A stretch of 45,046 nt of DNA. Origin: a virus. This document shows, one piece after another, positions 3-42,271 of this stretch. Under the pieces are notes generated by a model, which did no database searches, was not told where the DNA came from, and saw only the letters and a program-made list of their open reading frames with translations. The first letter of the stretch is position 1. Every line of letters begins with the position of its first letter. A program made the position numbers and the translations under genes. The stretch spans positions 1-45,046 of the IMG/VR virus record IMGVR_UViG_3300030685_000041. The stretch is one strand, 5' to 3'.

Positions 3-320
3 ATACCAATAAATGGTGATTATGTAATATTAATACCAGAAAAACTTAGAGGATATGATCAGATAAATAAAGTTATGTTTAAAAATTTTATTGATAATAA
101 TATAGGGCAAATATTTAGGACCCGCAGCGTGAATAATGTAGAAAGTGAAAGAATATTAAATGTTAGTTACGATTATCCTCCAAAAAATAAAGAAGGATTT
201 ATGTATGATTTTGGAATTAAAAAATATTATGTTTCAGTTTATGAAAAAAATATTTTAGCATTTGCTAAAACTACAGAAGAACTAAAACAAATATTATTAA
301 CAAATAAATATAATATATGA
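3..320 (+). CDS. Internal-protein-like array member, 5' end outside window (NIGQI family)
   Basis: The frame is open from the first bases of the window, so the ATG at 75 is internal and the gene starts upstream. The visible part carries a GDYV block (codons at about 15-26) and then NNIGQI, as in the proteins at 16689-17018 and 17368-17679. A shorter IGQI core is also seen at 6770-7045. The shared pattern (G-D-Y-V, about 25 residues, N-I-G-Q-I, a short beta-rich stretch, a hydrophobic-K-T-x-x-x-L helix and the end K-Y-N-I) suggests a small SH3/KOW-like fold, which is inferred only. The stop overlaps the ATG of the next gene (ATGA). Function is unknown; packaging in the head is proposed from the array as a whole. 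Confidence 0.75.
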   Translation: MPINGDYVILIPEKLRGYDQINKVMFKNFIDNNIGQIFRTRSVNNVESERILNVSYDYPPKNKEGFMYDFGIKKYYVSVYEKNILAFAKTTEELKQILLTNKYNI

Positions 321-676
321 AGCATATAAAAACATTTGAGAATATTAATGAGCCGGAATATATAATTACATATTTTTTTAGCGCAGATGATGATAATGAT
401 ATAATGTCGCATTTATTTATGTTGAGAATAACAAAAATGTCAGAAAATTATTTGGAATATGATAAATATTACTATTATGAAAAAATAGATAGGTTTAATC
501 GTAGACTGTTTTCATTCTCAAATGGCAATATCTGGAATTATAATAATTATAATAATACATTAAAAATAATATATAAAACAAATTCAGAACAAGATGCTTT
601 GAATAGATTAAAAGAAATATTAGATAGTGATTCTATTCAATCTGGAATCTTATTTAGTACAAAATATAACATATAA
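317..676 (+). CDS. Internal-protein-like array member with capsid-targeting-like N-terminus
   Basis: A 119-residue protein of unknown function. It begins MKHIKTFENINE, which fits the T4 internal-protein leader MKTYQEFIAE in length, charge and aromatic position, with I-N-E at residues 10-12 as a possible prohead-protease site. It ends TKYNI, the tail shared across the array. The body is rich in Tyr, Asn and Asp and has no recognisable domain. The start overlaps the previous stop by four bases (ATGA), which implies translational coupling. Packaging into the capsid is inferred from the leader alone. Confidence 0.8.
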   Translation: MKHIKTFENINEPEYIITYFFSADDDNDIMSHLFMLRITKMSENYLEYDKYYYYEKIDRFNRRLFSFSNGNIWNYNNYNNTLKIIYKTNSEQDALNRLKEILDSDSIQSGILFSTKYNI

Positions 677-678
677 AA

Positions 679-1164
679 ATGAAATATATAAAAACATTTG
701 AAGCTAAATATCAATATCTTAATGACGAAGATACTAATAAATTAGATTTGTTTATTGGTGATTATATTGAAAAACAAAATTTACCAGACAAAATAAATAC
801 ATTAAAATTTGATTATTTTGAAGAAAATATATTTAATTATAATGATATTTTTGATGATTTGATATGTATAAGTCATTATGGTCCAGATTCCAATAATATT
901 TATTATGAATCTGACATATTTTGTGATGAAAACAATATATCAACCTCTTCACCAAGAAATCGTAACACTTTATCTAATTTAATTGATAAGTACTTTAAAA
1001 AATATATAAAATATTTTGATAAAAGAGTTATTGAATTGATGAGAATTAGATTAAGACCTTTGAAAAAATATAAAGAAATATACGAAGAGTATGGTGAATA
1101 TTTTAGTACTAAGGTTAAAAAAACTTTTCAATATATTTTAGATACAGAAAAATATAATATATAA
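679..1164 (+). CDS. Internal-protein-like array member
   Basis: A 161-residue protein starting MKYIKTFEAKYQYLND and ending TEKYNI. The leader matches its neighbours, but the usual (I/L)-x-E is replaced by L-N-D, so cleavage is less certain here. The body is acidic and aromatic-rich, and the C-terminal third is a probable helix. No family is recognised. It follows the previous gene by two bases. A late-promoter-like TTTATATATA begins directly after its stop, so the next gene probably has its own transcript. Confidence 0.8.
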   Translation: MKYIKTFEAKYQYLNDEDTNKLDLFIGDYIEKQNLPDKINTLKFDYFEENIFNYNDIFDDLICISHYGPDSNNIYYESDIFCDENNISTSSPRNRNTLSNLIDKYFKKYIKYFDKRVIELMRIRLRPLKKYKEIYEEYGEYFSTKVKKTFQYILDTEKYNI

Positions 1165-1198: not shown

Positions 1199-1579
1199 AT
1201 GAAAAATTTTGAAGAATTTATGAGAATAAATGAACTTTTGGCAACTACCCCAGTTGATTTAAAATATGTCGATAAAGATAATGGCGATAAAGAAATATTA
1301 AGATTAGCTATAATAGGTGAATTAGATGCAGTTAGTTTATATGAACAATTGTCAGAAACAGCAAAAAATGAAAAAGTGAAGAAAACTTTATTGGATATTG
1401 CAAAAGAAGAAAAAAGACATATTGGTGAACTTCAAACATTATTGAAAGAATTAGATCCAGAATATAAAGAAGAACTTAAAAAAGGAAAAGAAGAAGTAAA
1501 ATCTGCTGATTCTGATGAAGAAAAAGATGAAGAAAAAGAGGACAAAGATAAAGAGGATGATACTATTCAAAAAAATTAA
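1199..1579 (+). CDS. Encapsulated-ferritin-like protein with capsid-targeting-like leader
   Basis: A 126-residue protein. The ATG at 1199 is preferred over an in-frame TTG just before it because it gives the leader MKNFEEFMRINE, with I-N-E at 10-12 as in T4 internal proteins. Residues about 32-90 form two helices of the encapsulated ferritin (EncFtn) type: E41 and Y48 in helix 1, E70, E71 and H74 in helix 2. E41-E71-H74 reproduces the 30- and 3-residue spacing of the EncFtn ferroxidase ligands as I recall them (Glu32, Glu62, His65, with Tyr39). EncFtn forms ring decamers from two-helix subunits and oxidises Fe(II) inside encapsulin shells, which share the HK97 fold with phage heads. Residues about 92-126 are a highly charged acidic/Lys tail. 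Inferred role: iron or oxidant handling by a packaged protein. A generic rubrerythrin-like protein is the alternative. Confidence 0.8.
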   Translation: MKNFEEFMRINELLATTPVDLKYVDKDNGDKEILRLAIIGELDAVSLYEQLSETAKNEKVKKTLLDIAKEEKRHIGELQTLLKELDPEYKEELKKGKEEVKSADSDEEKDEEKEDKDKEDDTIQKN

Positions 1580-6245: not shown

Positions 6246-6698
6246 TTATTCTTTTTCACTTATATAATTTAACTCACCTAACTTTATCATTCTCTCTAAA
6301 AGCATGGCATCTTTATATGTATTTTTAGTTTTTTTAATTGCTCTATTTTTATAAAGAAAAGAATCTGAGTAATAACTTGTACCTGAGCAAGTTACTTTTA
6401 TTTTTTTGCCAGTTAATATATTTTTCCTAAGTCTATTAAGAATAACCGCGGATGTTATAATATTATCCATAGGTGCTGAGAAAGTACAATCTTTATATAC
6501 AATATAATTTTGCGTTTTGTGCTTCATTTGCCAAACTATATCAACTTCATGACCTTTTTCTTCACATTCGTTAATTGATTCTAATAAACCATTTAATAAA
6601 GAGTTAGAAAGAATAACTAATTCAAAACCTTTATCAGATTGATTAATCATCTTAATATTTTCTTTATCCTTATGATAAAATTTAATAAATCTCTTCAT
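6246..6698 (-). CDS. Hypothetical protein
   Basis: A 150-residue basic protein with no recognised domain. The middle contains the pattern F-S-A-P-M-D-N and the basic turn G-K-K-I-K-V-T-C-S-G-T. It is preceded by a TACTTTTG promoter element at 6723-6730 and is probably early/middle expressed. The divergent gene at 6770 begins the next array. Confidence 0.7.
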   Translation of the reverse strand: MKRFIKFYHKDKENIKMINQSDKGFELVILSNSLLNGLLESINECEEKGHEVDIVWQMKHKTQNYIVYKDCTFSAPMDNIITSAVILNRLRKNILTGKKIKVTCSGTSYYSDSFLYKNRAIKKTKNTYKDAMLLERMIKLGELNYISEKE

Positions 6699-6722
6699 TC
6701 TTTTTTATTTTTATTATTTTCA

Positions 6723-6730
6723 CAAAAGTA
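6723..6730 (-). promoter_or_regulatory. TACTTTTG promoter element
   Basis: TAnnTTTG on the minus strand, 24 bases before the ATG at 6698, in the divergent region shared with the array gene at 6770. Confidence 0.5.
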
Positions 6731-6769
6731 CAAAATATTTTTAATATAAAAAAATAATATATAATAAAT

Positions 6770-7045
6770 ATGAAATACTTAATACAATATGAAAATTTTT
6801 GGGATGGAATATTTTTAAAAAAAGATAAATTATCTAAAGGTGATTATGTTAGAGTAAAAAAATGTCAAGATATTGGTCAAATAGAAAAAGTTCTTAAAGC
6901 TGGAGGCGCTGGATTGGAAACACGTCCATTACGATTTATTGTCAAATTTAATAATCATAGAAGAGAATATACAGATTATGAATTAGAAAAAATTACTAAA
7001 GATGAATTTGAACTTGAATCTGATATAAAAAAATACAATTTATGA
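6770..7045 (+). CDS. Internal-protein-like array member, KOW/SH3-like
   Basis: A 91-residue protein, first of a five-gene overlapping run. It starts MKYLIQYENF and ends KKYNL. Residues about 22-70 (L-S-K-G-D-Y-V-R-V, I-G-Q-I-E-K-V, F-I-V-K-F, Y-E-L-E-K-I) read like a five-strand KOW/SH3 barrel. The block order matches the larger NIGQI proteins at 3-320, 16689-17018 and 17368-17679. No (I/L)-x-E follows the leader, so cleavage cannot be argued here. Its stop overlaps the next start by four bases. Confidence 0.8.
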   Translation: MKYLIQYENFWDGIFLKKDKLSKGDYVRVKKCQDIGQIEKVLKAGGAGLETRPLRFIVKFNNHRREYTDYELEKITKDEFELESDIKKYNL

Positions 7046-7398
7046 AATATATTAAAACATATGAAGATATATTTGATAATTCAAAATATAAAAAATATAT
7101 AATTACTAAATATAAAAGATATAAAAGTGATAACTCAGAAGATATCTATATAAATCTATATGAAAATCTATATTATACAATGAATAAAAACTCATTTCGT
7201 GCTTTATATTATTATGAAGAATTTACTAATAAAATTGAAGAATTTATAAATAGACAAGAAATTGACTATATTCCAATTAACTTTATTGTATATGAATCAG
7301 ATATTTTAGAAAATTCAATTGAAGAACTTGACGAAATTATTAAATTGCATTTAGAAACAAAAAAATTGAATGTAGCAATAAAAAAATATAATTTATGA
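7042..7398 (+). CDS. Internal-protein-like array member
   Basis: A 118-residue protein starting MKYIKTYEDIF and ending KKYNL. It is Tyr- and Lys-rich in the first half, with an acidic helical second half. The leader has I-F-D where others have (I/L)-x-E. It overlaps both neighbours by ATGA. No domain is recognised; the role is inferred from the array only. Confidence 0.8.
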   Translation: MKYIKTYEDIFDNSKYKKYIITKYKRYKSDNSEDIYINLYENLYYTMNKNSFRALYYYEEFTNKIEEFINRQEIDYIPINFIVYESDILENSIEELDEIIKLHLETKKLNVAIKKYNL

Positions 7399-8012
7399 AA
7401 TATTTACAATCATACGACTCCTATTTAAATGAAAATATTGATTATCAATTGATTTTAGAAGATAAACAAATAAGTTTATATAAGTCAATACAGGATAAGA
7501 CTATAAGCAAATTAAGTTTGAGTTTATATTTTGCAGCAACTTATACTTGGGGTGTAACTATGTTATACCCAATTGTTGATGCTCTTGTTAAGAATTCAGA
7601 TATTCCAAATATAACACAGCAACAAATAGTGTTATTAACATTATATTCTATTACTCAAATTTTAAATATGGCAAATAATGATGTTAAAAAAATTAAAGCA
7701 GAATTGGATAAAGATGGACTATTTTCTATTGCAGAAAAAGTAAAAAAAACATTATTATCAATTCATAATATATTTAGTTTTGTTTCAAGAAGTTTTGGTA
7801 GAGTTATTGATTCATTTATTGATATGGTTGCTTATGTCGGCTTAGGGGTACCTTTTACCACCGCAATTGTTGAGTTAATATCAAAAGAAGGTTTAAATTT
7901 AGATACATTACCACAAAAAGTAGCTATATTTGGTGCTGCAGCAGGTGTTTATACCATTAAAAGTATTGTAGAGACTCTTATTGACATGATCAAAAATAAA
8001 ATAAAAAAATGA
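7395..8012 (+). CDS. Membrane protein with capsid-targeting-like leader
   Basis: A 205-residue protein. The leader MKYLQSYDSYLNE carries L-N-E at 11-13. Hydrophobic stretches at about 42-66, 77-95, 145-163 and 171-192 suggest three or four membrane-spanning or membrane-inserting helices, some containing Gly-rich turns. It has no K-Y-N tail. A hydrophobic protein with an internal-protein leader could be packaged and inserted into the host inner membrane on ejection, as a superinfection-exclusion or pore-like factor. That role is inference; a holin is the main alternative. Confidence 0.7.
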   Translation: MKYLQSYDSYLNENIDYQLILEDKQISLYKSIQDKTISKLSLSLYFAATYTWGVTMLYPIVDALVKNSDIPNITQQQIVLLTLYSITQILNMANNDVKKIKAELDKDGLFSIAEKVKKTLLSIHNIFSFVSRSFGRVIDSFIDMVAYVGLGVPFTTAIVELISKEGLNLDTLPQKVAIFGAAAGVYTIKSIVETLIDMIKNKIKK

Positions 8013-8785
8013 TATTCACTAAATATCAAGATTTTCTGAATGAATCATTAAATCAAAAAGAATTTATATTATTAGTAGGTCCTCCTGGAATGGGCAAATC
8101 TTTCTATACCAATAAATTAGAAAAGAAATATGATATTTTTAATAGAGATGATATTGCAGTTGAAATATGTGAAAGAGAAGGACTTACTTATAAAGATGCT
8201 TTTAACCGTCCAAATTTTGTTTTAGATAAAAACACCAGAACATTTTTTGTTCCAGAAGAAAGTGAATTTTATTATGAGGATGGTAGAAAATATTTATTGT
8301 ATTACGAGTTTTTAGGTGAAATTATTGAATTGCCAGAAAAAAGTTTTTTAAGAAGATGGGCAAATGAAGGATTTAAAAGGATTGTAGATATAAATCATGA
8401 AATTGAAGATACTTTTGCTGATAGATTAGAAAAATCAATAAAGAAATTACACAATATAATTATTGATATGACTAACATTACTAAGATATTAAGAAGGAGT
8501 ACGATTAGTAAATTGAAAGATAATAAAGAAAAATATAAAGTTATTTCAGTTATTTTTAACGATGGCGGCAAAGGAATGGAGGATACAATTATTGGAATAA
8601 ATAGAAAAAGAGATTTGGATTTAATTAAAATTAGAAGAGAAAAAGAACTATCTGATGACCTTCTAAAAACTTTTCTAAAAAATTATGAAGAGCCAGAAAA
8701 AGAAGAAGGTATAGATAAAATTATTCATATTGATACTAAAAAAGAATTAGAAAATTTCTTAAATTCAGACAAACAAACACCATAA
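8009..8785 (+). CDS. P-loop kinase-like protein with capsid-targeting-like leader
   Basis: A 258-residue protein. MIFTKYQDFLNES gives L-N-E at residues 10-12 immediately before a P-loop NTPase: GPPGMGKS at 24-31 (Walker A), and a hydrophobic strand ending in D near 151-153 (I-I-I-D-M-T) as a Walker B-like site. The layout resembles zeta-toxin or polynucleotide-kinase-type AAA_33 kinases, which phosphorylate nucleic acids or small molecules. The C-terminus is a Glu/Lys-rich helix. It overlaps the preceding membrane protein by four bases and closes the array. If the leader is functional this is a packaged enzyme, as T4 Alt is. Confidence 0.7.
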   Translation: MIFTKYQDFLNESLNQKEFILLVGPPGMGKSFYTNKLEKKYDIFNRDDIAVEICEREGLTYKDAFNRPNFVLDKNTRTFFVPEESEFYYEDGRKYLLYYEFLGEIIELPEKSFLRRWANEGFKRIVDINHEIEDTFADRLEKSIKKLHNIIIDMTNITKILRRSTISKLKDNKEKYKVISVIFNDGGKGMEDTIIGINRKRDLDLIKIRREKELSDDLLKTFLKNYEEPEKEEGIDKIIHIDTKKELENFLNSDKQTP

Positions 8786-12167: not shown

Positions 12168-13340
12168 ATGTTAAAAGCAATTAAAATAAGAATATATCCT
12201 AATCAAGAACAACAATCTTATATAAATAAGATGCTTGGTACTTGTAGATTTGTGTATAATAATTGTTTATCATATAAAATAAGCAAATACAACGAAAATA
12301 AAAAGTCTATTTCGTTTGCTGATACAAGCAAACATTTAACATTAATAAAAAATGAATATGAGTGGATTAAAGAAAGTCATTCTAAGGTAGTTCAGCAAAC
12401 TTTAATTAATCTAGATATAGCATATAAATCATTTTTTAAAAATGGGAATGGTTTTCCAAAGTTCAAATCAAAAAAAGATAATAATCAATCTTGTAGATTT
12501 CCTGTTGATGCGATAAGTGGAATTAAAGGAAATAGAATAAATATTATAAAAGCATTAAAAGATATTCATTATAAATGTTCAAAAATTGATGAAATATGTT
12601 TAAATAAAAACCAGAAGAAAATTAAATCAGCAACATTAACTAAAAATAAATCTGGTAAATATCATTTATCTATTTTAATTGATAGAGAAAATAATAAAAA
12701 ACTAACTGATACTAATAAAGTAATTGGAATTGATGTTGGAATTAAAACATTTATTGTTGGATCTGATGGAATTAATTTTGATAATATAAAAATTAAAAGA
12801 AATAATGAAGATAAATTAAAAAGGCTTCATCAATTACACTCAAGAAGAGAAAATAATTCAAAGAATAAAGAAAAATCAAGAATTAAATTAGCAAGATGTT
12901 ATGAAAAATTAAATAATAAAAAAGAATACTATCTACATTCAATTACAAATAAATTACTTAGCGAAAACCAAGTTATAGTAATGGAAGATTTAAATGTTAG
13001 TGGAATGTTAAAAAATCATTGCTTAGCTAAATCTATACAAGAATTAAGTTTATATAGATTTAAAGAAATGTTAAAATATAAAGCAAATTGGTATAGTAGA
13101 GATATAATTGAAATAGATAGATGGTTTCCTTCAAGTAAATTGTGTTCTAATTGTGGTTATAAAAAAGATGATTTAACATTAAATGATCGTAATTGGATTT
13201 GTCCAAAATGTGGTTCAAATCACGATAGGGATTTTAATGCCGCGAATAATATTGAAAAAGAAGGAAGAAGAATATTAAAAATAGGGTTGAGTTCGCCCAA
13301 ATTAACGCCTTTGAAGACCAGAACATTAGTTCAGTCGTAG
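12168..13340 (+). CDS. tnpB: TnpB RNA-guided nuclease, copy 1
   Basis: A 390-residue protein with full TnpB architecture. An N-terminal helix-turn-helix-like WED/REC region is followed by the RuvC triad D189 (GIDVGIK), E273 (MEDLN) and D355 (HDRDFNAAN), and a zinc ribbon C326-x2-C329...C345-x2-C348 between RuvC II and III. TnpB proteins of IS200/IS605-type elements are guided by an omega-RNA from the element's right end. No TnpA transposase is present nearby, so the gene is a solo TnpB, perhaps acting as a homing-like gene in the phage. It is only about a third identical by eye to the second copy at 21933, yet both share the same upstream 28 bases. All catalytic residues are intact. Confidence 0.95.
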   Translation: MLKAIKIRIYPNQEQQSYINKMLGTCRFVYNNCLSYKISKYNENKKSISFADTSKHLTLIKNEYEWIKESHSKVVQQTLINLDIAYKSFFKNGNGFPKFKSKKDNNQSCRFPVDAISGIKGNRINIIKALKDIHYKCSKIDEICLNKNQKKIKSATLTKNKSGKYHLSILIDRENNKKLTDTNKVIGIDVGIKTFIVGSDGINFDNIKIKRNNEDKLKRLHQLHSRRENNSKNKEKSRIKLARCYEKLNNKKEYYLHSITNKLLSENQVIVMEDLNVSGMLKNHCLAKSIQELSLYRFKEMLKYKANWYSRDIIEIDRWFPSSKLCSNCGYKKDDLTLNDRNWICPKCGSNHDRDFNAANNIEKEGRRILKIGLSSPKLTPLKTRTLVQS

Positions 13341-13374
13341 AATTAGGAAAAGAATGTAAGAAATTACAGAACTA

Positions 13375-13836
13375 TCACGATACAATTCGTATTTTTGGAA
13401 ATACCGAATTTACTCTATTCATATAGTTTCTATATTCTAAGCCAAACATTTTTAATAAGTATTCTTCCTCTATATGAATATATTTTTTAAAAATAAAATA
13501 TGACATAATTGGAATTGTTAATCCAATGATTGATCCCCAATAAAGTATTATACCTGGAATAATAATAACAATCCAAATTGCATAAATTGGATGCCTACAA
13601 TAAGCATAAAATCCTTTTGTTCTAAGTCTTTTTTCATTAAAATATTTATCAATTGTTACTGCTGGATAAATAAATAAACAAAATCCAACTAAAATTAAAA
13701 TTAAACCAAGTGTTTTTAATTTTGTAAATTCAAAATTAGTGCAAAAATTGTTTTGAATTATATAAATTACTAATGAATAAAAAATAGTTAATATTCCAAA
13801 TTTAGGACCAATACCCCACCTAGTCATTGTCCTCAT
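13375..13836 (-). CDS. ICMT/phospholipid methyltransferase-like membrane protein
   Basis: A 153-residue integral membrane protein. Membrane segments lie at about 14-30, 41-60, 88-106 and 107-122. The C-terminal signature RTKGFYAYCRHP...E-E-E-Y-L-L-K-x-F-G-x-E-Y-x-x-Y is that of the isoprenylcysteine carboxyl methyltransferase / PEMT family, whose R-H-P and E-E segments bind SAM. Bacterial members methylate lipids or other small hydrophobic acceptors. It is probably host-derived. Its stop lies 35 bases after the TnpB-1 stop and its start overlaps the upstream gene by four bases. The substrate cannot be told from sequence. Confidence 0.8.
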   Translation of the reverse strand: MRTMTRWGIGPKFGILTIFYSLVIYIIQNNFCTNFEFTKLKTLGLILILVGFCLFIYPAVTIDKYFNEKRLRTKGFYAYCRHPIYAIWIVIIIPGIILYWGSIIGLTIPIMSYFIFKKYIHIEEEYLLKMFGLEYRNYMNRVNSVFPKIRIVS

Positions 13837-14180
13837 TTTATTAACTTTTTAATAGTTTCTTTGATTAATTCATATGAATTTTTGTCCCATTTAACAAAAA
13901 ATTTATCATTTTCAATTGATTTACAATTTTTTATAAAATCTTCATCTTCTGGAACAAGTGCACATGCCAATACTATAAGTTCCTTATTATCAAGAATTTC
14001 ATATTTTTTAAGTTCCTCTTTATATTTATTATTGAAATCTGAATAAATATCAAGAACTTCATCAACATTAAGCACAGGATTTGATTTCTGTATTTCGCCA
14101 AATATTGGTTCTGTTGGTTTTACAAAAACTTTACGATTATAATATAGAACAACGTCAAAAATTTCAATATGATCTGTCAT
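13833..14180 (-). CDS. Hypothetical protein
   Basis: A 115-residue acidic protein of unknown function, first gene of a two-gene unit with the ICMT-like methyltransferase (ATGA overlap). The order is beta strand, loop, then helices: I-E-I-F-D-V-V-L-Y-Y, D-F-N-N-K-Y-K-E-E-L-K-K, K-E-L-I-V-L-A-C-A-L-V-P. A TATCTTTG element lies 22 bases upstream. Confidence 0.7.
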   Translation of the reverse strand: MTDHIEIFDVVLYYNRKVFVKPTEPIFGEIQKSNPVLNVDEVLDIYSDFNNKYKEELKKYEILDNKELIVLACALVPEDEDFIKNCKSIENDKFFVKWDKNSYELIKETIKKLIK

Positions 14181-14201
14181 AATTTTTTTATTTATTTGTC
14201 A

Positions 14202-14209
14202 CAAAGATA
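14202..14209 (-). promoter_or_regulatory. TATCTTTG promoter element
   Basis: A perfect TAnnTTTG on the minus strand, 21 bases before the ATG at 14180. It sits in the divergent region that also holds the plus-strand TTTATATATA box at 14242. Confidence 0.55.
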
Positions 14210-14241
14210 ATAATTAAAAATGAAATAAAAAAGGATTTTTA

Positions 14242-15930: not shown

Positions 15931-16389
15931 TCATATGTTAAATTTACTAATATTATTTTTTCTATCAACAACATCATTATAAACTTGCCTACCATGACTA
16001 TCACCACCTTTCATTTTATATTTATCTATTAATTCTACTAACCAAGGATCTAAATTTATACCTTTACCTTCAACTTCTTCTCTAAGTTCTTTTGGTAACC
16101 AAATGTGATAAATGTAACTATCATGTTGGAATCTGGCCCTCATTTCCAATCCTTTACTTGCCATAATACTTTGAATATCAGGTGTCATTCTAACCATATT
16201 TTCTATTTCTATGGTTTTTTTATATAATCCACCTTTTTCTTCAGTAAAAGATTCTTTTGCTATAAACATATAAAAATCATGATCTTCATTTAATGGATTT
16301 TCGTTTAATAATTCTGCAAAAAGTTCTACTTGATATTTTTCTTTTTTCTTTTCGTCTTCTTTTGTTTCAAATGTTTTTATGTGTTTCAT
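15931..16389 (-). CDS. Internal-protein-like array member, last of minus-strand run
   Basis: A 152-residue protein starting MKHIKTFETKEDEKKKEKY. L-N-E occurs later (about residues 28-30 and 33-35) rather than at 10-13. It ends in S-K-F-N-I although no gene follows it, which shows that the tail is conserved for protein reasons and not only because it doubles as the next gene's start region. The body has a folded look (Y-H-I-W-L-P-K-E-L) but no recognised family. Confidence 0.8.
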   Translation of the reverse strand: MKHIKTFETKEDEKKKEKYQVELFAELLNENPLNEDHDFYMFIAKESFTEEKGGLYKKTIEIENMVRMTPDIQSIMASKGLEMRARFQHDSYIYHIWLPKELREEVEGKGINLDPWLVELIDKYKMKGGDSHGRQVYNDVVDRKNNISKFNI

Positions 16390-16392
16390 ATT

Positions 16393-16692
16393 TCATATAT
16401 TATATTTTTCTTGATCTATTATTATTTGGAATTTGTCGATACAATCTTGTAAATCATTTGATGTGTATTTTATAGCTTTATCTTTATTTCTAAAAAGAAG
16501 ATATGGGTTATAATTTACAAGTACTAATTTATTATTAATATATTCATATAAAGTTTTAGACCAAGTGTTATCAGATACTGGCGAGTTAATATTTTCGGTG
16601 TCTAATTCCAATATTTCCATAGAATATTTATTTATCCATATGACATATTTTTTTAAAATATTAATATTTTCGTATGTTTTTAAGTGCTTCAT
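16393..16692 (-). CDS. Internal-protein-like array member
   Basis: A 99-residue protein starting MKHLKTYENINILKK and ending DQEKYNI. The leader has I-N-I rather than I-N-E. A short Trp-containing beta region is followed by a C-terminal helix. Its stop lies three bases before the ATG of the next gene, and its start overlaps the preceding stop. Confidence 0.8.
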   Translation of the reverse strand: MKHLKTYENINILKKYVIWINKYSMEILELDTENINSPVSDNTWSKTLYEYINNKLVLVNYNPYLLFRNKDKAIKYTSNDLQDCIDKFQIIIDQEKYNI

Positions 16693-17018
16693 ATATTATA
16701 TTTTTTTGATGCTAATTTTAATTCTAAGTCTTTTTTTGTTTTTGCATAATATTCTATTATTGGACGATAAAATTTAAAAGTATTATTAGTAAAAAAATGT
16801 TTAAGTCCTAGTGGTATATTATAATATCTAATTTTTGTATAATCATATCTGTTTTTATTTCTATAGTCTGATGGTAATCTAACTATTTGCCCTATATTAT
16901 TACTGATAAATTTTACAAATATATCGGTCATATTTTGAATAGATTCTGCATCAATTAAAACATAATAGCCGATTTGTAGGGAATCTTGTAAAGATTCAAA
17001 TGTTTTTAAGTGCTTCAT
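16689..17018 (-). CDS. Internal-protein-like array member, NIGQI family
   Basis: A 109-residue protein starting MKHLKTFESLQDS and ending SKKYNI. It contains G-Y-Y-V-L-I and, about 25 residues on, F-I-S-N-N-I-G-Q-I-V-R, the hallmark of this subfamily. A Y-A-K-T-K-K-D-L-E-L helix comes just before the tail and aligns with F-A-K-T-T-E-E-L-K in the protein at 3-320. Paralogy is clear by eye; function is unknown. Confidence 0.8.
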   Translation of the reverse strand: MKHLKTFESLQDSLQIGYYVLIDAESIQNMTDIFVKFISNNIGQIVRLPSDYRNKNRYDYTKIRYYNIPLGLKHFFTNNTFKFYRPIIEYYAKTKKDLELKLASKKYNI

Positions 17019-17371
17019 ATATTATATTTTTCTATATTTAGTTCAAAATCAATTTTATCAAAATAACTTTTAGGTACATTATATACTTCAAACACTACAC
17101 AATTTGTTTCTGGATATATTTTAAATACTAAATTTTCAAAATCTTTATAGAGTTTTAATAAAGCAACATTACTTACAGTATAATTATATTTAATTGATAT
17201 TGTGATTTGATTAGCCTCACTAAATACTGACACTTCATTTTGCCTTTTAATACCAGTTTTTAATAATATTATATTATCATCATAATATTTTATTGATAAA
17301 TATCTATTATATTTAGCCCAAGATTTAAAATTTCTATTTTCAAATAATTCTATTTCTTTAACGTGATTCAT
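17015..17371 (-). CDS. Internal-protein-like array member
   Basis: A 118-residue protein starting MNHVKEIELFENRNF and ending NIEKYNI. L-F-E at 9-11 is a candidate prohead-protease site. The body alternates short beta strands (I-T-I-S-I-K-Y, C-V-V-F-E-V-Y). It overlaps both neighbours by ATGA. No domain is recognised. Confidence 0.8.
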   Translation of the reverse strand: MNHVKEIELFENRNFKSWAKYNRYLSIKYYDDNIILLKTGIKRQNEVSVFSEANQITISIKYNYTVSNVALLKLYKDFENLVFKIYPETNCVVFEVYNVPKSYFDKIDFELNIEKYNI

Positions 17372-17679
17372 AGGTTATACTTTTTTATTTTTATATAGCT
17401 TTCAACATCTTCAATATTAGGTGAAAAATATAAGATTTCTGATAAATATATATTTCTTAACCCGCTAGATTCTATTAAATCTTTTATATTATTATAATTA
17501 TTATATTTTACAGTATAGTACACACCACTTATAGTTTTACCAATATCTATTATTTGTCCTATATTTGATGATATAAATTTTATTAATTTATTTATTTTAA
17601 TGAAATTTTTTTCATTACATATAATATAATCATTAATTTGTGGTTTATTAATATTTTCAAATATTTTTATATATTTCAT
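17368..17679 (-). CDS. Internal-protein-like array member, NIGQI family
   Basis: A 103-residue protein starting MKYIKIFENINKPQIND and ending KIKKYNL. N-D-Y-I-I-C near residue 16 and F-I-S-S-N-I-G-Q-I-I-D near 35 place it with the proteins at 3-320 and 16689-17018. The leader has I-N-K in place of I-N-E. Function unknown. Confidence 0.8.
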   Translation of the reverse strand: MKYIKIFENINKPQINDYIICNEKNFIKINKLIKFISSNIGQIIDIGKTISGVYYTVKYNNYNNIKDLIESSGLRNIYLSEILYFSPNIEDVESYIKIKKYNL

Positions 17680-20776: not shown

Positions 20777-21736
20777 TCAATCATTATCCTCAATTTCGAA
20801 GAAATCCCCGGCATCATCATTTTCTCCAAATGTTGCTTCATCATCAGGCTCTTTTGTTGAAAACGATTCACCTTTAGAAGCTATTTTTTGAGTATTTTGT
20901 ATATCATTACCAGAAAGAATTTCAAGTATTTGACTAACTTTATACTTTTCTTCTGATGTCCACTCTTTTGCAATATGATCTTCCAAATTTACAGTTCGTT
21001 CCATTAGCATATCGGTAATCATCTTTTTTGCTTTTGGATTGGTAATTTTATTTTTACCAGTTTTTTCATCTATTTCAACAGGAACTTTTCGGCCTTGAAC
21101 CATAATAGGAGAAATATCCATAAATGTACTTGAATCATAGTTAGGATATTCACCAAGTTGTTTTATAACAAGTTTAAAGTTTCTACCATTAGCCAAATCA
21201 AAAACATTACAAGGATCACCTGCTGTACCATCTTTTTGATCTTTAATTTTTTCTTTAATTTTATAACCATAAGGATAAATCATAATTTTACCTTCAAGAT
21301 CACGATTTTGTTCATCTTCTATTACAAGAATGTAAGAATAATATTTTGTACTTCTACTAATTAATTCTGCTTTTTCAACTTCAGTTGCGTTTTTAGAATT
21401 ATGTAATTTCCAATACATTGTACACATATCACATTTATCAGTAAGATTTTTTGCACAATCATAATATCCTGCTAATTCTGGATGATTTTTGAAATCAACG
21501 TAGTGTTGGTGTTTTTCTATAGCAGATTGTAATACTTTTCCATCTCTGGAAAGATTTGGGAGGAACCTAATTGTAGCAATATAACCTTTCTTTTTATCAG
21601 TTATTTTTGGACGATAAATACCATCCATTGCACCACTTTTTTTGTCTAAGAAACCTAATGTTTCTGATTGCGCATCAATGCTGTCGAATATATCTATATC
21701 GACATTTTTTTCATTTTCTTTCATTTGCCTTTTCAT
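20777..21736 (-). CDS. 32: Single-stranded DNA-binding protein, T4 gp32-like
   Basis: A 319-residue protein that aligns with T4 gp32 (301 residues). It has a basic/charged N-terminus for cooperative binding, I-R-F-L-P at 56-60, and a zinc region with His near 76-85, C94, C102 and C105 (C-D-M-C; T4 uses His64, Cys77, Cys87, Cys90). OB-fold blocks follow: Y-I-L-V-I-E-D...E-G-K-I-M-I-Y and N-F-K-L-V-I-K-Q-L-G-E-Y-P-N-Y-D-S-S-x-F. The tail is Asp/Glu-rich and recruits partners in T4. It coats single-stranded DNA at the fork and during recombination. It is flanked by a homing endonuclease and a TnpB. ATG at 21736 is used; a second ATG four codons in is possible. No clear promoter box was seen. Confidence 0.92.
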   Translation of the reverse strand: MKRQMKENEKNVDIDIFDSIDAQSETLGFLDKKSGAMDGIYRPKITDKKKGYIATIRFLPNLSRDGKVLQSAIEKHQHYVDFKNHPELAGYYDCAKNLTDKCDMCTMYWKLHNSKNATEVEKAELISRSTKYYSYILVIEDEQNRDLEGKIMIYPYGYKIKEKIKDQKDGTAGDPCNVFDLANGRNFKLVIKQLGEYPNYDSSTFMDISPIMVQGRKVPVEIDEKTGKNKITNPKAKKMITDMLMERTVNLEDHIAKEWTSEEKYKVSQILEILSGNDIQNTQKIASKGESFSTKEPDDEATFGENDDAGDFFEIEDND

Positions 21737-21932: not shown

Positions 21933-23177
21933 GTGAAGATAATTAAATATACATATAAATTCAGGTTAAAGCCAACACTAGATCAAAAGGTATTATTGAA
22001 TAAGCATTTTGGCTCTGTTAGATGGACCTATAATTACTTTCTAAACCAACGAAAAACTGAATACCTTAATAACAAAAAATCATTAAACTATTACGACCAA
22101 GCAGCAGAACTAACCCAAATCAAAAAAGTTAATGAATGGCTGAAAGAAATTAATAGTCAAACATTACAATACTCTCTGAAATGTCTTGATATGGCTTACC
22201 AAGGTTTCTTTAATAAAAGAACCAAATTTCCTAATTTTAAGTCAAAACGAAACAAAAATTCATTTACTATACCACAAAATGTTAGATATGATGGAACTAA
22301 ATTAATTGTTCCAAAATTTCTTGATGGAATAGAAATGATAATGGAAAGACAAATTAAAGGCATTATAAAACATTGTAATATATCAAAAACTCCTACTGGA
22401 AAATACTTTGTATCAATTCTAACTGAACTTGAATATCAACCTGTTAGAAAGACAAACCAATCAGTAGGAATAGATTTAGGTATAAAAGACTTTTTAGTGT
22501 TATCTAATGGAACGAAAATCAAGAACCATAGATTTCTAAAACACTACGAAAGAATTTTAGCTGAAAATCAAAAATATCTATCAAGAAAAACCAAACAATC
22601 AAATCGTTACGAAAAACAACGACTAAAACTTGCTAGAATTTATGAGAAAGTTACCAATTCTAGAATGGATTTAATTCATAAAACAACTAATAATCTAATT
22701 CATAATTTTGATATTATTTATTTAGAAGATTTAAATATTAAAGGAATGAGTAAAAGGTGTAAGCCAAAGCAAGATGAAAATGGAAAGTATTTACCTAATA
22801 ATCAATCGGCAAAATCAGGATTAAATAAATCTATTTTAGATGTTGCTTGGGGAACTTTCATAGATACACTTGAATACAAAGCATTGTGGAATGACAAACA
22901 AGTTATTCATATTGATAGGTTCTTTCCATCTTCTAAAGCCTGTTCTAAATGTGGCTGGATTAATAATAATTTAACCTTGAAAGATAGAAATTGGATTTGT
23001 CCTAAATGTGGTGAAAAGCATGATAGAGATATAAATGCCGCAATCAATATCCTTAATGAAGGATATCGTAAAAATATATCAGATGGAACGTCTGATTACG
23101 AGCGTGGAGCAAAAATAAGACCAATTTCGACTGGCACAAGCAACGAAACGCTTAAAAAGAAGGAACTCGTTTCCTGA
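21933..23177 (+). CDS. tnpB: TnpB RNA-guided nuclease, copy 2
   Basis: A 414-residue protein starting at GTG; no in-frame ATG near it would keep the conserved N-terminal strand. The RuvC triad is D181 (GIDLGIK), E265 (LEDLN) and D366 (HDRDINAA). The zinc ribbon is C337-x2-C340...C356-x2-C359. Compared with copy 1 it has a longer insertion between RuvC II and the ribbon and a different C-terminus. The sequence and codon use differ clearly (fewer AT-only codons), so the two copies are separate acquisitions or an old duplication. No TnpA is adjacent. A hairpin directly follows the stop. Confidence 0.95.
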   Translation: MKIIKYTYKFRLKPTLDQKVLLNKHFGSVRWTYNYFLNQRKTEYLNNKKSLNYYDQAAELTQIKKVNEWLKEINSQTLQYSLKCLDMAYQGFFNKRTKFPNFKSKRNKNSFTIPQNVRYDGTKLIVPKFLDGIEMIMERQIKGIIKHCNISKTPTGKYFVSILTELEYQPVRKTNQSVGIDLGIKDFLVLSNGTKIKNHRFLKHYERILAENQKYLSRKTKQSNRYEKQRLKLARIYEKVTNSRMDLIHKTTNNLIHNFDIIYLEDLNIKGMSKRCKPKQDENGKYLPNNQSAKSGLNKSILDVAWGTFIDTLEYKALWNDKQVIHIDRFFPSSKACSKCGWINNNLTLKDRNWICPKCGEKHDRDINAAINILNEGYRKNISDGTSDYERGAKIRPISTGTSNETLKKKELVS

Positions 23178-28010: not shown

Positions 28011-29038
28011 CTAATTTGCAGTTATAAACATTTTTCCGTTTCTTCTAGCAATCCAAGTATTATATTTCTCCATTATTGGTGACCACATTACACCATCATA
28101 ATATCCTTTTTGTATAATTGAATCTTTTGAATTTCTTAATAGTTTATGTGTTGATTCTGTTAATTGTGTATAATTAGCATAATTTTTAGAGAATATTCTA
28201 TCTGCTGTATATCCAGCTAAAATACTTAATATTTGAGTTCTATCGTGAAAATCTTCATATTTTCCTCTTATAGCAAAAGATTTTGATGACCTTATACTAC
28301 CATCACCATCTATAATTCCTTCTATTATTTTTTTTAATGTTTTTAAATTTAAATTAAACATATTAAAATTAATTTTTTTATCTGGAATCAATTTTAAGAA
28401 AATATCTTTATATTTACTTCCAATTCTTATATCAATAACATCACAAATTTGAATATCAGTATAATCATAAATATCAATTTTTTTCACAGATACTAGAGTG
28501 TCTTTATTTTTTTTTTATCACCATTATATCTATAGTATCGTTTTCTTTTACTATAAGTATATCCAATTTTTAAATTATTTAAACTATTTAAAATTTTATC
28601 AACAACATCATCATTCTTTGTATAATTTTGAGTAATTCCAATTCCATATTTAACAATGTGACCATCTGTTATAATAATGCCTAACAAATATGCTAAATTT
28701 TCATCTATATTTTCAAAATTAGCAGTTCTTTTACAAGATGTTAAAATTTTATCATATTGTTTTAAATTTTCTGACTCACATATTTTTATTTTTCCATTAT
28801 AATCTTCTATAACCATTTTATGACTTGGTGTTGAGATCATTGAAATTCTTCTACTATCAATAAATATAATAGGTCCATTATAATTATCTATTTTTATATT
28901 TTTTATTTTATCCCAAATTAAAAAATTTTCAATTATATCGTAAGATAATACAAAATCGCCAATTATTAGTTCATTAAATTTTTTCCAACCATTTATAGTT
29001 AAACATTCAGTGTCTATATCTACGTAACTATTTTCCAC
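28011..29038 (-). pseudogene. Intein-derived Hint/LAGLIDADG endonuclease, split by a frameshift in a ten-A run
   Basis: Two open frames (29038-28493 and 28487-28011) join into one protein of about 345 residues if one base is added in the A10 run (minus strand, 28516-28507); the second frame is open straight through the join. The first part has an intein N-terminal Hint segment: D-T-E-C-L-T-x-x-G-W, G-D-F-V-L-S-Y-D, and T-P-S-H at 70-73 (block B). It also has LAGLIDADG motif 1 (L-L-G-I-I-I-T-D-G). The second part has motif 2 (I-I-E-G-I-I-D-G-D-G) and a canonical intein C-terminus, W-I-A-R-R-N-G-K-M-F-I-T-A-N. The final Asn is followed at once by TAG, so there is no C-extein. The start is GTG, overlapping the methyltransferase stop. 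It is a free-standing intein relic or homing endonuclease. The frameshift may be real, a sequencing error, or bypassed by slippage. Confidence 0.75.
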
Positions 29039-29858
29039 TATTCAATAATTTTTCTTGTTTTCTTCTCTTTCGCTCTTGGTAAGTTATACCCTTGATAACA
29101 TGTTTATCAATCTCTTTTTGATATTTCTCTAAATAATCATTTGAATTTTCCAATCTATTTTTAGCCATATCAAGATAATTGGCTGAAATATCAATACCGA
29201 CATAATTGCAACCAAAAATTTTGCAACACACTGGAACAGTGCCTGACCCGCAATAAGGATCCAAAACAATTTTATCTTTATCATCATCAAATATAGAATA
29301 TATAATTCTTGTTGGTATATCTAAAGAAAAAGGCGCTGGATGTGGATTATTATTTTCTGGCATTATATCCCAAATAGCCATCATATTTGCATGTTTTGGA
29401 AGTAATTCCTTGCCTATTTTAGAATGATTTGGCTTATATAGCCAGTATATCCGTTCATCTGCTTGCCAGAACCTCCAACCTCTTAAATTACCTGTTATTT
29501 TTCTATTCCAAACAATTTCTTGTTTAATCATCCATTGTGTTTTATGAAGCCAAAGTATTGGATGAATCATATTTCCATTTACCCATCGACATTTATGATT
29601 ATAAAAAAAAGATCCACCTGGTTTTATAGTTCTATATATTTCGTTTAGAACCTTTATTTGATTTTCTTGATAGATATCTTCTGGTATATTATCATCATAA
29701 GTATCATATTCAACTTTTTTAATTAGTGCGCCACTATTATTCTTCTTATTATATACTGGACTCGTAATTCCAAGATCAAAATAATCAGAATCAATTTTTT
29801 GTAAAGTTTGTAGTGTATCACCTAATATTAATTCGTTTATTGGCCTCATAAAATTCAT
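29028..29858 (-). CDS. DNA adenine/cytosine-N4 methyltransferase
   Basis: A 276-residue protein. It starts near G-D-T-L-Q-T-L, then S-P-V-Y-N at 33-37 (motif IV, usually S/D-P-P-Y), then W-N-R-K and, near the C-terminus, L-D-P-Y-C-G-S-G-T at 199-207 (motif I, SAM binding) followed by G-I-D-I. This order (IV before I) is that of beta-class N4/N6 amino-methyltransferases. It transfers methyl from SAM to the exocyclic amine in DNA and probably protects phage DNA. Val in place of the first motif IV Pro-adjacent residue is unusual but tolerated in the class. The enzyme appears complete and is not itself interrupted by the intein-like gene behind it. Confidence 0.88.
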   Translation of the reverse strand: MNFMRPINELILGDTLQTLQKIDSDYFDLGITSPVYNKKNNSGALIKKVEYDTYDDNIPEDIYQENQIKVLNEIYRTIKPGGSFFYNHKCRWVNGNMIHPILWLHKTQWMIKQEIVWNRKITGNLRGWRFWQADERIYWLYKPNHSKIGKELLPKHANMMAIWDIMPENNNPHPAPFSLDIPTRIIYSIFDDDKDKIVLDPYCGSGTVPVCCKIFGCNYVGIDISANYLDMAKNRLENSNDYLEKYQKEIDKHVIKGITYQERKRRKQEKLLNSGK

Positions 29859-31484: not shown

Positions 31485-32042
31485 TTAATATCTATTTGGA
31501 TATTTAAGATATGATTGTAATTCTCGACAATCTAAATTTGTAATACCATTATATCCTTTATCTATATAAAATTGAAAAAGTTTTTCTTGGGAAAGATTTT
31601 TTATTTTTTCAACTTCATTATTAATATAGTTTTTTGATACATTTATTGTTCTTTTTATAACTGGCATAAGATTTACGTTTAATTTTATCATCGCCATTGC
31701 TCTGTGCCTACCTTCTTGACCAGAGTTATTTACAGTATAAAATACTACTGGAAATTTATCTCCATTTTTCATATTTTCTACATATTTATCTACTAATTTA
31801 TCATTAATTGGAATTAAAGCGTCTTCATATGATAAATTCCCAAAATTTCTAGCAACAGTATAAATGTATTGTGTAGGACTGATATAAGTTAATTCTTCAA
31901 TTGTTCTTTTCCAAAGTAATGAATATATGGGATTTTCATATGCTGAATACATATTTTTAATATTTTTCATATCAAAATACTTACAGCCATCACATATTTG
32001 TATATTTTCATTTAAAAAATCTTTTAATGCTAAAATTTTCAT
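31485..32042 (-). CDS. ParB/sulfiredoxin-fold protein with capsid-targeting-like leader
   Basis: A 185-residue protein. MKILALKDFLNEN supplies L-N-E at 10-12, the same arrangement as in the kinase at 8009. Residues about 95-120 (P-V-V-F-Y-T-V...G-Q-E-G-R-H-R-A-M-A) match the ParB/Srx catalytic region, where G-x-x-R-x-x-A binds nucleotide. Two Cys near 17-20 form C-x2-C. ParB-fold proteins in phages act as CTPases, nucleases or phosphotransferases; which applies here cannot be told. The leader suggests the protein is packaged. A TTTATATATA box lies four bases before the start. Confidence 0.7.
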   Translation of the reverse strand: MKILALKDFLNENIQICDGCKYFDMKNIKNMYSAYENPIYSLLWKRTIEELTYISPTQYIYTVARNFGNLSYEDALIPINDKLVDKYVENMKNGDKFPVVFYTVNNSGQEGRHRAMAMIKLNVNLMPVIKRTINVSKNYINNEVEKIKNLSQEKLFQFYIDKGYNGITNLDCRELQSYLKYPNRY

Positions 32043-38039: not shown

Positions 38040-39038
38040 TTAATTATTTAAATCGTATTCCATCATAATTTTAACCAATTCTTTAAATTTAACTTTTGAT
38101 TCCCAGCCTAAAACATTTTTTGCTTTTGTTGAGTTTCCTAAAAGTAAATCTACTTCTGATGGTCTGAAGTATTTAGAATCTATTTTAATTACAGTTTTAC
38201 CTGTTTTTTTATCTATTCCTATTTCATCATTACCAGAGCCTTTCCATTCAATTTCAACATGAATATGCTTAGAAGCTTCTTCAATAAATTCCCTATTTGT
38301 GTGTCCTTCTCCTGTTGCAATAACAAAATCATCTGGCTCTGAATGTTCTAAAATTTTTATCATGGCATCACAATATTCTGGTGCATATCCCCAATCTCTT
38401 GAACTATCAATATTTCCTAAATGAATAGGCTCTCCTGTTTTTGTCCATTTAACTAAACCTTGAGTTATTTTTTTTGTAACAAAATTACCACCCCGTCTTT
38501 CTGATTCATGATTAAATAATATTCCATTTGAAATAAACATATTATAAGAATCTCTATAATTTTTAGAAATCCAAAATGAATATAATTTTGCAACGCCATA
38601 CGGTGATCTAGGATGAAAAGGTGTAGATTCCGTTTGTGGTATTTCTTGAACTTTTCCAAATAATTCTGATGTTGTAGCATTATAAACTCTACATTCTGGA
38701 CAATGCTTTTTAACAGCTTCTAAAATCATTAAAGTACCTAATCCATCAGTTTGAGCTGTGTATAAAGGCAAAAAGAATGATATTTGTACGTGACTTTGAG
38801 CTGCTAAATTGTAAATTCTATCCGGTTTTATTTTGTTAATTATTTCATCTATACTTAATGGATCAGTTAAATCTCCATAATGCAAATTTAGTTTATCAAA
38901 TATGTGATCTATTCTACTGGTATTAAATGAGCTTGATCTTCTTATAACTCCATGAACTTCATTTCCTTGTTCTAATAATTTTTCCGCTAAATAGCTCCCA
39001 TCTTGACCTGTCACTCCTGTTATTAATATTTTTTTCAT
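38040..39038 (-). CDS. gmd: GDP-mannose 4,6-dehydratase
   Basis: A 332-residue short-chain dehydrogenase. It has the NAD(P) loop T-G-V-T-G-Q-D-G-S-Y-L at 7-17, N-L-A-A-Q-S-H-V at 77-84, the catalytic T123-S124-E125, and Y147-x3-K151 (P-R-S-P-Y-G-V-A-K). All Gmd hallmarks are present. It converts GDP-D-mannose to GDP-4-keto-6-deoxy-D-mannose, the branch point for GDP-fucose and GDP-colitose. It is immediately followed upstream by Fcl and ColD homologues. GDP-mannose must come from the host or from genes outside the window. Confidence 0.95.
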   Translation of the reverse strand: MKKILITGVTGQDGSYLAEKLLEQGNEVHGVIRRSSSFNTSRIDHIFDKLNLHYGDLTDPLSIDEIINKIKPDRIYNLAAQSHVQISFFLPLYTAQTDGLGTLMILEAVKKHCPECRVYNATTSELFGKVQEIPQTESTPFHPRSPYGVAKLYSFWISKNYRDSYNMFISNGILFNHESERRGGNFVTKKITQGLVKWTKTGEPIHLGNIDSSRDWGYAPEYCDAMIKILEHSEPDDFVIATGEGHTNREFIEEASKHIHVEIEWKGSGNDEIGIDKKTGKTVIKIDSKYFRPSEVDLLLGNSTKAKNVLGWESKVKFKELVKIMMEYDLNN

Positions 39039-39045
39039 TTATTTT

Positions 39046-39975
39046 TTATTTTAATGTACTTAGATAATTTTTATAAGTTTCTATTATGCCTTCTTTTAAT
39101 TCTATTGTATGAAACCACCCTAATGAATGTATTTTAGATACATCTAATAATTTTTTTGGAGTTCCATCAGGTTTAGAAGAATCAAAAAATATGTCACCTT
39201 CAAACCCTATATATTTTTTCATTAGAAATGCTAATTCCTTTATTGATAAATCTGTACCAGAACCAACATTTATTATTTCACTATCATTATAATTTTCCAT
39301 TAAAAATATACAAGCATCAGCTAGATCATCAACATGTAAAAATTCTCTATAAGGCGAGCCTGTTCCCCAAAGTATTATATATTTATCACCTCTAATTTTA
39401 GCTTCATGAATTTTCCTTATTAATGCTGGAAATACATGTGAATTTTCTAAATGGTAAGAATCGTTTATTCCATATAGATTTGTTGGCATTACAGAAATAT
39501 AATTAGTATTATATTGTTTATTATATGATTGACACATTTTAATGCCAGCAATCTTTGCAATTGAATATGCATCATTTGTTTCTTCTAAATAGCCAGATAA
39601 TAAGTATTCTTCTTTAATTGGTTGAGTACAATTTTTAGGATAAATACAACTTGATCCTAAAAACAATAATTTTTTTATATTAAACTTATAACAAGCGTTT
39701 ATTACATTTGCTTCAACCATTAAATTTTGATAAATAAATTCGGCTGGATAAAGATTATTTGCCATAATTCCTCCAACTTTAGCAGCAGCTAAAAATACAT
39801 ACTCTGGTTTTTCATTTTTAAAAAAATTATAAGTTTTTTTTTGATTTGTGAGATCAACCTCTTTATGACTTACAGTAATTATATTTGTGTATCCCTGATT
39901 TAATAATTCTCTTAATATTGCACTACCGACCATTCCATTATGACCAGCTACAAAAATTTTACTATTTAATTCCAT
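39046..39975 (-). CDS. fcl: GDP-L-fucose synthase (epimerase-reductase) family
   Basis: A 309-residue protein. It has G-H-N-G-M-V-G at 11-17, S108-S109-C110 (G-S-S-C-I-Y-P), Y137-x3-K141 and H180 (N-S-H-V). These correspond to the Ser, Cys109, Tyr136, Lys140 and His179 of E. coli Fcl. It turns GDP-4-keto-6-deoxy-D-mannose into GDP-L-fucose by 3,5-epimerisation and 4-reduction. Because a ColD-like gene is in the same operon, a ColC-like role (5-epimerase/4-reductase on the 3-deoxy intermediate) must also be considered. Sequence motifs favour a true Fcl. Confidence 0.93.
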   Translation of the reverse strand: MELNSKIFVAGHNGMVGSAILRELLNQGYTNIITVSHKEVDLTNQKKTYNFFKNEKPEYVFLAAAKVGGIMANNLYPAEFIYQNLMVEANVINACYKFNIKKLLFLGSSCIYPKNCTQPIKEEYLLSGYLEETNDAYSIAKIAGIKMCQSYNKQYNTNYISVMPTNLYGINDSYHLENSHVFPALIRKIHEAKIRGDKYIILWGTGSPYREFLHVDDLADACIFLMENYNDSEIINVGSGTDLSIKELAFLMKKYIGFEGDIFFDSSKPDGTPKKLLDVSKIHSLGWFHTIELKEGIIETYKNYLSTLK

Positions 39976-39987
39976 ATTTAATTTCTT

Positions 39988-40332
39988 TTATTTGTGTCCT
40001 TTATAAAGTTTTACAGAGTCTTCAATTAGTGATTTTCCTTCTATAATTGATTTTTCCATCATTCTATTAATAGCCTCTACATATTTTGGCCTTTTTTGTT
40101 TAAAACAAATGTCAATTTTTCTTTTTAAGTCTGCAATTTCTATATCTGATGTTGATGATCCAATTGCATCTTCTAAATACCACATTCTACAATGTAATAT
40201 AGATAATTTTTCTATAACTTCACCAATATTATCAGTCTCAATAATATCTGACGGCATATCTACTTTTATTGATTTATTTAATGTATTATTAATTGTTTCT
40301 TTAATAATATCTTCTATTCGTTCTCCTATCAT
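39988..40332 (-). CDS. DUF4254-like small helical protein
   Basis: A 114-residue all-helical protein. The segment L-H-C-R-M-W-Y-L-E-D...I-A-D-L-K-R-K-I-D-I-C-F-K-Q-K-R resembles DUF4254 proteins, which occur next to heptosyltransferases in Bacteroidetes and phages. Here it sits in the same operon as a GT9 gene. Its function is not established; a helper of glycan assembly is suggested by context. Confidence 0.55.
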   Translation of the reverse strand: MIGERIEDIIKETINNTLNKSIKVDMPSDIIETDNIGEVIEKLSILHCRMWYLEDAIGSSTSDIEIADLKRKIDICFKQKRPKYVEAINRMMEKSIIEGKSLIEDSVKLYKGHK

Positions 40333-40333
40333 G

Positions 40334-42254: not shown

Positions 42255-42271
42255 TTTTATTTAATTTTTAT

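Follow-up and report, generated by a model that had tools for sequence, protein, structure and literature searches.

The window analyzed here is a 45-kb fragment (45,046 nucleotides) of a virus, IMG/VR record IMGVR_UViG_3300030685_000041, and at positions 1199–1579 (+ strand) it carries an open reading frame (ORF) for a ferritin-like protein of 126 amino acids that combines the fold of the encapsulated ferritins (EncFtn) with an N-terminal leader. We consider it quite probable that a T4-like huge phage carries this protein inside its head, as an EncFtn that is packaged by way of a capsid-targeting leader and then freed by the prohead protease. The window itself is very likely, as judged from its genes, a piece of such a phage, since its gp32-type single-stranded DNA-binding protein (20777–21736, − strand; PF08804, E = 1.5e-20) is nearest to uncultured phage genomes of 634–735 kb. 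Two more contigs contain the same EncFtn, with 100% (L001) and 86% (L002) identity.

The ORF extends from the ATG at 1199 to the stop at 1579, and the alternative listed start (TTG 1196) adds just one Met. The protein matches PDB entries 5n5e (E = 3.9e-21) and 2e0z (E = 3.5e-20; the P. furiosus EncFtn domain); M. xanthus EncC and EncB are weaker matches. It also matches the NCBIfam models EncB_fam (1.6e-19) and TIGR04535 (3.5e-16). Pfam Rubrerythrin (PF02915) scores above its cut-off (47 bits vs 22.8), while the EncFtn-like family PF22277 (24.9/27 bits), EncB_fam (NF058679, 70/90) and TIGR04535 (59/125) fall below theirs. At the sequence level, the resemblance to EncFtn proteins is far above chance. 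AlphaFold predicts the monomer with a pLDDT of 86 (32-row alignment) as two long core helices, an extra C-terminal helix and an N-terminal helix spanning the leader. The best solved-structure matches to this fold in Foldseek were 5n5e, NE0167 (3k6c), EncB and R. rubrum EncFtn, led by 5n5e, 3k6c, 7s5c and 5da5. The original prediction, which was made from the letters of the sequence, had proposed EncFtn metal ligands at E41, Y48, E70, E71 and H74 and suggested structure prediction as a check. Both hold: the fold is recovered for the monomer with R. rubrum EncFtn among the matched structures, and the named residues align with R. rubrum Glu32, Tyr39, Glu61/62 and His65, of which Glu32, Tyr39, Glu62 and His65 are the ferroxidase-centre residues (PMC5012862). 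These five residues and E77 are invariant in the 21-row and 32-row viral alignments, and the spacing E-x6-Y-x21/22-EE-x2-H is kept in 76 of 79 viral ORFs. We therefore read the ORF as an EncFtn-fold protein with a complete di-iron site, for which ferroxidase activity is predicted. The EncFtn core of the predicted mature protein, with all five ligands, occupies 1235–1501 and is followed by an acidic, low-confidence C-terminal tail (1502–1576; pLDDT ~58 at its end) that may, as a guess, help to bind iron or core proteins.

The leader is best seen against the cellular homologues, of which 80 were collected from archaea and candidate bacterial phyla. The 68 that were cleanly readable are ~94 amino acids long, and their start Met aligns with L13 of the window protein, where the protein body starts, so that the first 12 residues, MKNFEEFMRINE (1199–1234), are an addition to a complete EncFtn. 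Residues 10–12 of this predicted capsid-targeting leader read INE, and the equivalent in L021 is MNE|L. Among the leader-bearing viral EncFtns, 25 of 26 have [LIVM]-x-E at the junction of leader and body, compared to 4.8% per position in the same proteins, a count that depends on the alignment and on related sequences, so that its binomial value is not a probability. Examples include FDDFLNE|T, KNYLNE|V, KINE|I, FKEFMLNE|M and KKFINE|E, and several leaders have an additional earlier site (YLTE|S, YLTE|A). As a sequence pattern this junction is the signature of T4/phiKZ-type prohead proteases, and cleavage between E12 and L13 (INE|L), which the original prediction did not mention, probably takes the leader off. 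The prohead protease of T4 and of the phiKZ-type giants cuts behind a motif ending in E, and in T4 it strips capsid-targeting sequences (CTSs) of 10–20 residues off internal proteins (PMC7411985; PMC5694885; PMC10052503). A T4 CTS also brings foreign proteins into heads (PMC3012670).

A related contig (G049) brings these components together. It encodes an EncFtn (L132) ~52% identical to that of the window, a portal protein (PHROG 213) and a head maturation protease (PHROG 207, E = 7.6e-31; Peptidase_S80 above cut-off). The protease is continuous with a scaffold-like region of ~15 repeats such as YSEYIAENLDKSID (YSEYIAE repeats), and the combined protein contains 17 [FY]..[LIV]xE sites compared to 0–4 in the other ORFs of that stretch. 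The Gp23-family capsid protein of the contig has a plausible site, MHSMNE|N, in its N-terminal segment, as does LR745206 (FHSINE|N), and the P3–P1 residues of these capsid-protein sites are of the same type as those of the window (INE|L) and L021 (MNE|L). More broadly, 14 of the 40 longer viral EncFtn records contain a T4-type S77 protease (10 above cut-off), and 18 of the 37 EncFtn-virus records searched contain the Gp23 family. In the huge phages L210 (9911–12256) and L213 (3547–5670), a prohead protease is continuous with a scaffold-like region of ~15 14-residue YSEYIAENLDKNI repeats. Each of these repeats is likely a self-cleavage site, and the protease–scaffold fusion is unusual.

Comparable leaders are found on unrelated proteins. 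In L131, an unrelated acidic protein directly upstream of EncFtn starts MDKKTLNFDDFITE|KHH and the EncFtn itself starts MKKTLNFDDFLNE|TLS, a near-identical leader. In the window, two proteins next to the EncFtn gene (both + strand) begin with MKHIKTFENINE (317–676) and MKYIKTFEAK (679–1164), and further leaders occur on a candidate internal protein (MKYLQSYDSYLNE; 7395–8012, + strand), a P-loop kinase/ATPase-like protein (MIFTKYQDFLNE; 8009–8785, + strand; PHROG 2071, PF13671, PF08433) and a weakly ParB-like protein (MKILALKDFLNE; 31485–32042, − strand; PHROG 1033, a weak match at E = 0.004). The original prediction held that the EncFtn begins like the adjoining array, which is true of the class of leader, although the EncFtn leader is not an identical copy. 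In the window clade, 32 of 214 ORFs have an MK..[FY][EN] start, as do 19 of 198 in the huge-phage relatives, compared to 1 of 931 near cellular EncFtn genes. When the window was taken by itself, the best similarity of the EncFtn leader to a neighbor was not significant (p = 0.45). This pairwise comparison yielded little because its null, the N-termini of other viruses, contains the same leader class, and it was replaced by a positional motif test. In T4-type EncFtn phages, [FY]..[LIM]xE occurs within residues 3–18 of 29% of ORFs compared to 4% internally (p = 1.4e-10). Neither cellular EncFtn loci (4 vs 5%) nor the phages in which EncFtn is fused (2 vs 2%) have such an N-terminal enrichment. 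The proposal of a phage head-targeting leader is supported, in the form of a short N-terminal sequence like that of T4 internal proteins.

Several observations extend this picture of the leaders. In a 411-kb phage (L022, 9666–10821), three successive genes with EncFtn in the center start MNPRKAFEQALVK, MNPRKAFEQALAK and MNSRIAFEQALAK, another leader class, which does not end in [LI]xE. L029 encodes a separate leader protein (6662–7439; MRLKNFLKEG...) that is joined to EncFtn in L034 (584–1087; MRLQLFLEN...), the latter being, by its sequence, a leader-bearing domain fused with EncFtn. Near the EncFtn of L005, a P-loop ATPase (DUF5906-like; 12690–14240) starts with MRLVKSFED. Array proteins of the window (317–1164, 6770–7398 and 15931–17679) end in -KYN[IL], and the DNA behind these ends, AAATATAATAT or ATATAATTT, adjoins the next ATG. 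We considered these C-termini as a second targeting signal and set the idea aside, since the DNA that encodes them is also found ahead of genes whose upstream sequence is of another kind (31485–32042, − strand); it may be a promoter-like element that is translated as a C-terminus.

In other phages, EncFtn is built directly into head proteins. It is located at the C-terminus of a portal protein in L003 (PHROG 146, E = 1e-43), inside the C-terminal half of a portal (E = 2e-102) that is followed by a head protease and the major capsid protein (MCP) in L031, and N-terminal to a head-maturation protease (PHROG 530, DUF2213) in L032. L004 and L036 have it inside proteins of 682 and 925 amino acids upstream of the head protease and MCP, and the head-region protein of L036 (8861–11638) combines EncFtn with a P-loop ATPase-like part. 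In the Eggerthella phage LE2-3 it lies in a 948-amino-acid protein between portal and MCP, and in the L029 group leader-type EncFtn genes stand between head-closure and tail-sheath genes. The recruitment of EncFtn to phage heads, proposed for this one protein, appears to recur elsewhere and includes portal and head-protease fusions that would reach the head by another route. A tblastn search of 50,697 phage records with the window protein, the L004 domain and the P. furiosus core matched LE2-3 only, which leaves deposited phages with hardly a member of the family. In a tree of 94 columns, in which most forks are open, the starred branches force at least four changes of fusion label and more than one fusion event is therefore probable; the tree neither showed nor excluded a single origin. 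On balance, we lean towards the broader view that many tailed phages have independently made their capsid an encapsulin-like iron-oxidizing compartment, by a protease-released leader in T4-like and huge phages or by fusion to the portal, the maturation protease or other head proteins.

The original prediction was framed by encapsulins, and this reasoning survived in part. The EncFtn fold stands, but the nearest cellular relatives are free proteins of ~94 amino acids rather than encapsulin cargo. The encapsulin family PF04454 was found in none of the 40 whole genomes of these relatives and in none of 50 viral records, most of them fragments and the window record not among them; control genomes were positive in both searches. 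A simple pattern check of the C-terminal tail, which ends KEDDTIQKN, recognized no motif like an encapsulin targeting peptide. With no targeting peptide recognized and no shell gene found, we reject ordinary membership among encapsulin cargoes. The nearest cellular relatives act without encapsulin, like the s-FLP class (PMC11202242), and because they are free and their genomes lack encapsulin, the phage protein more likely descends from a captured free EncFtn than from one transferred out of an encapsulin. Its fold and metal site make it an EncFtn, whereas its targeting is not that of an encapsulin cargo.

A mechanism can be proposed from these findings. Residues 1–12 would act as a CTS of the kind present on Alt and the internal proteins of T4 and bind the prohead core; cleavage by the prohead protease after INE12 would then leave an EncFtn that starts almost exactly where the free cellular EncFtns start, and for both of these steps the case is strong. 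R. rubrum EncFtn is a monomer in its apo form and becomes a decamer upon binding Fe2+ (PMC5012862). By the same chemistry, packaged apo-monomers or dimers could assemble and oxidize Fe2+ inside the capsid. The likeliest role would be to keep Fe2+ off the packaged DNA, so that less Fenton damage occurs within the particle, and this protection may go on once the contents have been ejected into the host. Many other phages would have recruited EncFtn comparably, with a leader or by fusion to the portal, the protease or other head-module proteins.

Where the protein acts is the main point on which a competing explanation differs. A leader-packaged EncFtn could be an ejected effector with its job in the host after injection, such as iron sequestration or blunting of peroxide stress, the capsid serving as its vehicle. 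This explanation has the leader packaging, the protease cleavage and the EncFtn identity in common with ours and differs in the site of action. T4 CTS proteins are ejection proteins (PMC7411985), and apo-EncFtn is a monomer that assembles on Fe2+ (PMC5012862); EncFtn fused to a portal or protease, in turn, is not expected to exit the head as a free enzyme. By analogy, the portal and protease fusions would favor a benefit in the particle, and the T4 precedent one after ejection. We regard the effector as a serious but clearly less probable explanation than an enzyme that works within the head. It is unlikely that the protein is a cytoplasmic iron or oxidative-stress protein that, as its archaeal relatives do, acts unbound to any shell during infection, with an N-terminal extension that has no packaging role. 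Such a function would fit the free, encapsulin-independent cellular relatives, the viral L136/L026 EncFtn that has no leader, and the free Dps and Mn-catalase that phages carry (PMC8008677; PMC6669764), yet it leaves unexplained the conserved [LIVM]xE junction, the leaders on unrelated neighbors and the fusions to portal and head protease. Structural use of the EncFtn ring or four-helix pair, as a scaffold or DNA-condensing element with incidental metal chemistry, appears more doubtful still. The fusions to portal and head-module proteins are consistent with it, as is an acidic tail that may touch core proteins, but ligands kept in 76 of 79 viral ORFs and throughout the 32-row alignment indicate selection for the metal site. 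We give very little weight to the idea that the common N-termini are a DNA-level translation or recombination cassette without a function in the protein. The start regions of the array genes are indeed near-identical in DNA, and an AT-rich, TATAAT-like element ahead of the ATG is part of this similarity. Nevertheless, the DNA of the EncFtn leader differs while the class pattern is kept, F/Y..[LI]xE persists in distant viruses with unrelated DNA, and the motif is repeated inside the scaffold and present in the N-terminus of the MCP.

Packaging of the window EncFtn into the head, followed by release through the prohead protease, has several points against it as well. The strong leader evidence comes from relatives and not from the window alone: in the window clade by itself the enrichment of [FY]..[LIM]xE is modest (15 vs 9%, p = 0.04), and the [LIVM]xE count at the junction rests on a single alignment and on related sequences. 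An [LI]xE site is often missing from the array leader MKYIKTFE, so that the array may hold two leader types. The window, L001, L002 and L021 are fragments without protease or capsid genes, and the link to the protease was drawn from the relative with an EncFtn of ~52% identity. A direct search did not find EncFtn in four near-complete huge-phage relatives, which makes it an accessory gene. Finally, a decamer is unlikely to pass through a tail tube, so that any ejection would need the apo-monomer.

Other features of the window are summarized here. A 12-bp hairpin with T runs on both sides (1583–1610; + strand sequence AAAAAAGCCACCTTTCGGTGGCTTTTTC) is likely a terminator 3′ of the EncFtn gene; scored on the − strand, one such hairpin was found compared to a shuffle mean of 0.2. 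By the look of their sequence, two genes are TnpB/OrfB-like (IS605-type; 12168–13340 and 21933–23177). At 28011–29858 (− strand), reading frames that resemble inteins or homing endonucleases (ECLTINGWKKF...) come after a DNA methyltransferase-like gene, and a run of sugar-nucleotide/glycan-type genes, including epimerases and an aminotransferase, at 38040–44633 (− strand) suggests surface or DNA glycan chemistry.

It is useful to compare the phage protein with known systems. Its best sequence and fold match is the P. furiosus EncFtn–encapsulin (PFC_05175; 5n5e, 2e0z; Z 10.2, rmsd 2.2 over 87 residues), which has the same ligands; there, EncFtn is placed inside an HK97-fold shell by fusion to the shell protein, whereas the phage EncFtn is separate, has an N-terminal leader and belongs to a DNA-packaging phage. 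The s-FLP protein NE0167 (3k6c) and the 94-amino-acid homologues from archaea and the candidate phyla radiation (L041–L120) share the body, begin where the mature phage protein would begin and likewise have no recognized C-terminal targeting peptide, but unlike the phage protein they have neither a leader nor a link to a capsid, and encapsulin was absent from the 40 genomes searched. The EncFtn, EncB and EncC cargoes of R. rubrum, H. ochraceum and M. xanthus share the fold and di-iron site; they have a C-terminal targeting peptide and an encapsulin partner, neither of which was found for the phage EncFtn. The closest parallel for the leader is T4 IPI–III and Alt, where 10–20 N-terminal residues ending in x-x-E stand on unrelated proteins alongside a cognate prohead protease (here in the relative G049), although the bodies are anti-restriction proteins or an ADP-ribosyltransferase and none is a ferritin.

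Proteins of the ferritin superfamily have been described in phages, including Dps and Mn-catalase (Gratiaviridae, Lactobacillus phages; PMC8008677; PMC6669764) and the gp217 ferritin of Vi01-like phages, which was detected by mass spectrometry and placed in the tail (PMC10892097), in keeping with a tail-side Ferrojan-horse idea for these phages. According to their authors these belong to other families, and no head leader or portal fusion was described for them. Our literature search, which had most subscription papers and preprints outside its coverage, found no description of a phage EncFtn or of a ferritin with a CTS.

Encapsulins are regarded as domesticated phage capsids able to hold EncFtn cargo (PMC8346489), and an EncFtn that a true phage head receives through a leader or contains as a fusion would be the mirror image of that pairing. 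If true, virion biochemistry would have a layer not described before, and encapsulin–EncFtn would have a natural parallel that could have evolved in either direction. It would give a reason for iron chemistry in the virion, namely that packed DNA is shielded from Fe2+ and peroxide or that the enzyme is delivered to the host, and it would provide a marker by which capsid-targeting sequences could be recognized in uncultured huge phages. It would also bear on whether the partnership between capsid and EncFtn had a viral or a cellular beginning.
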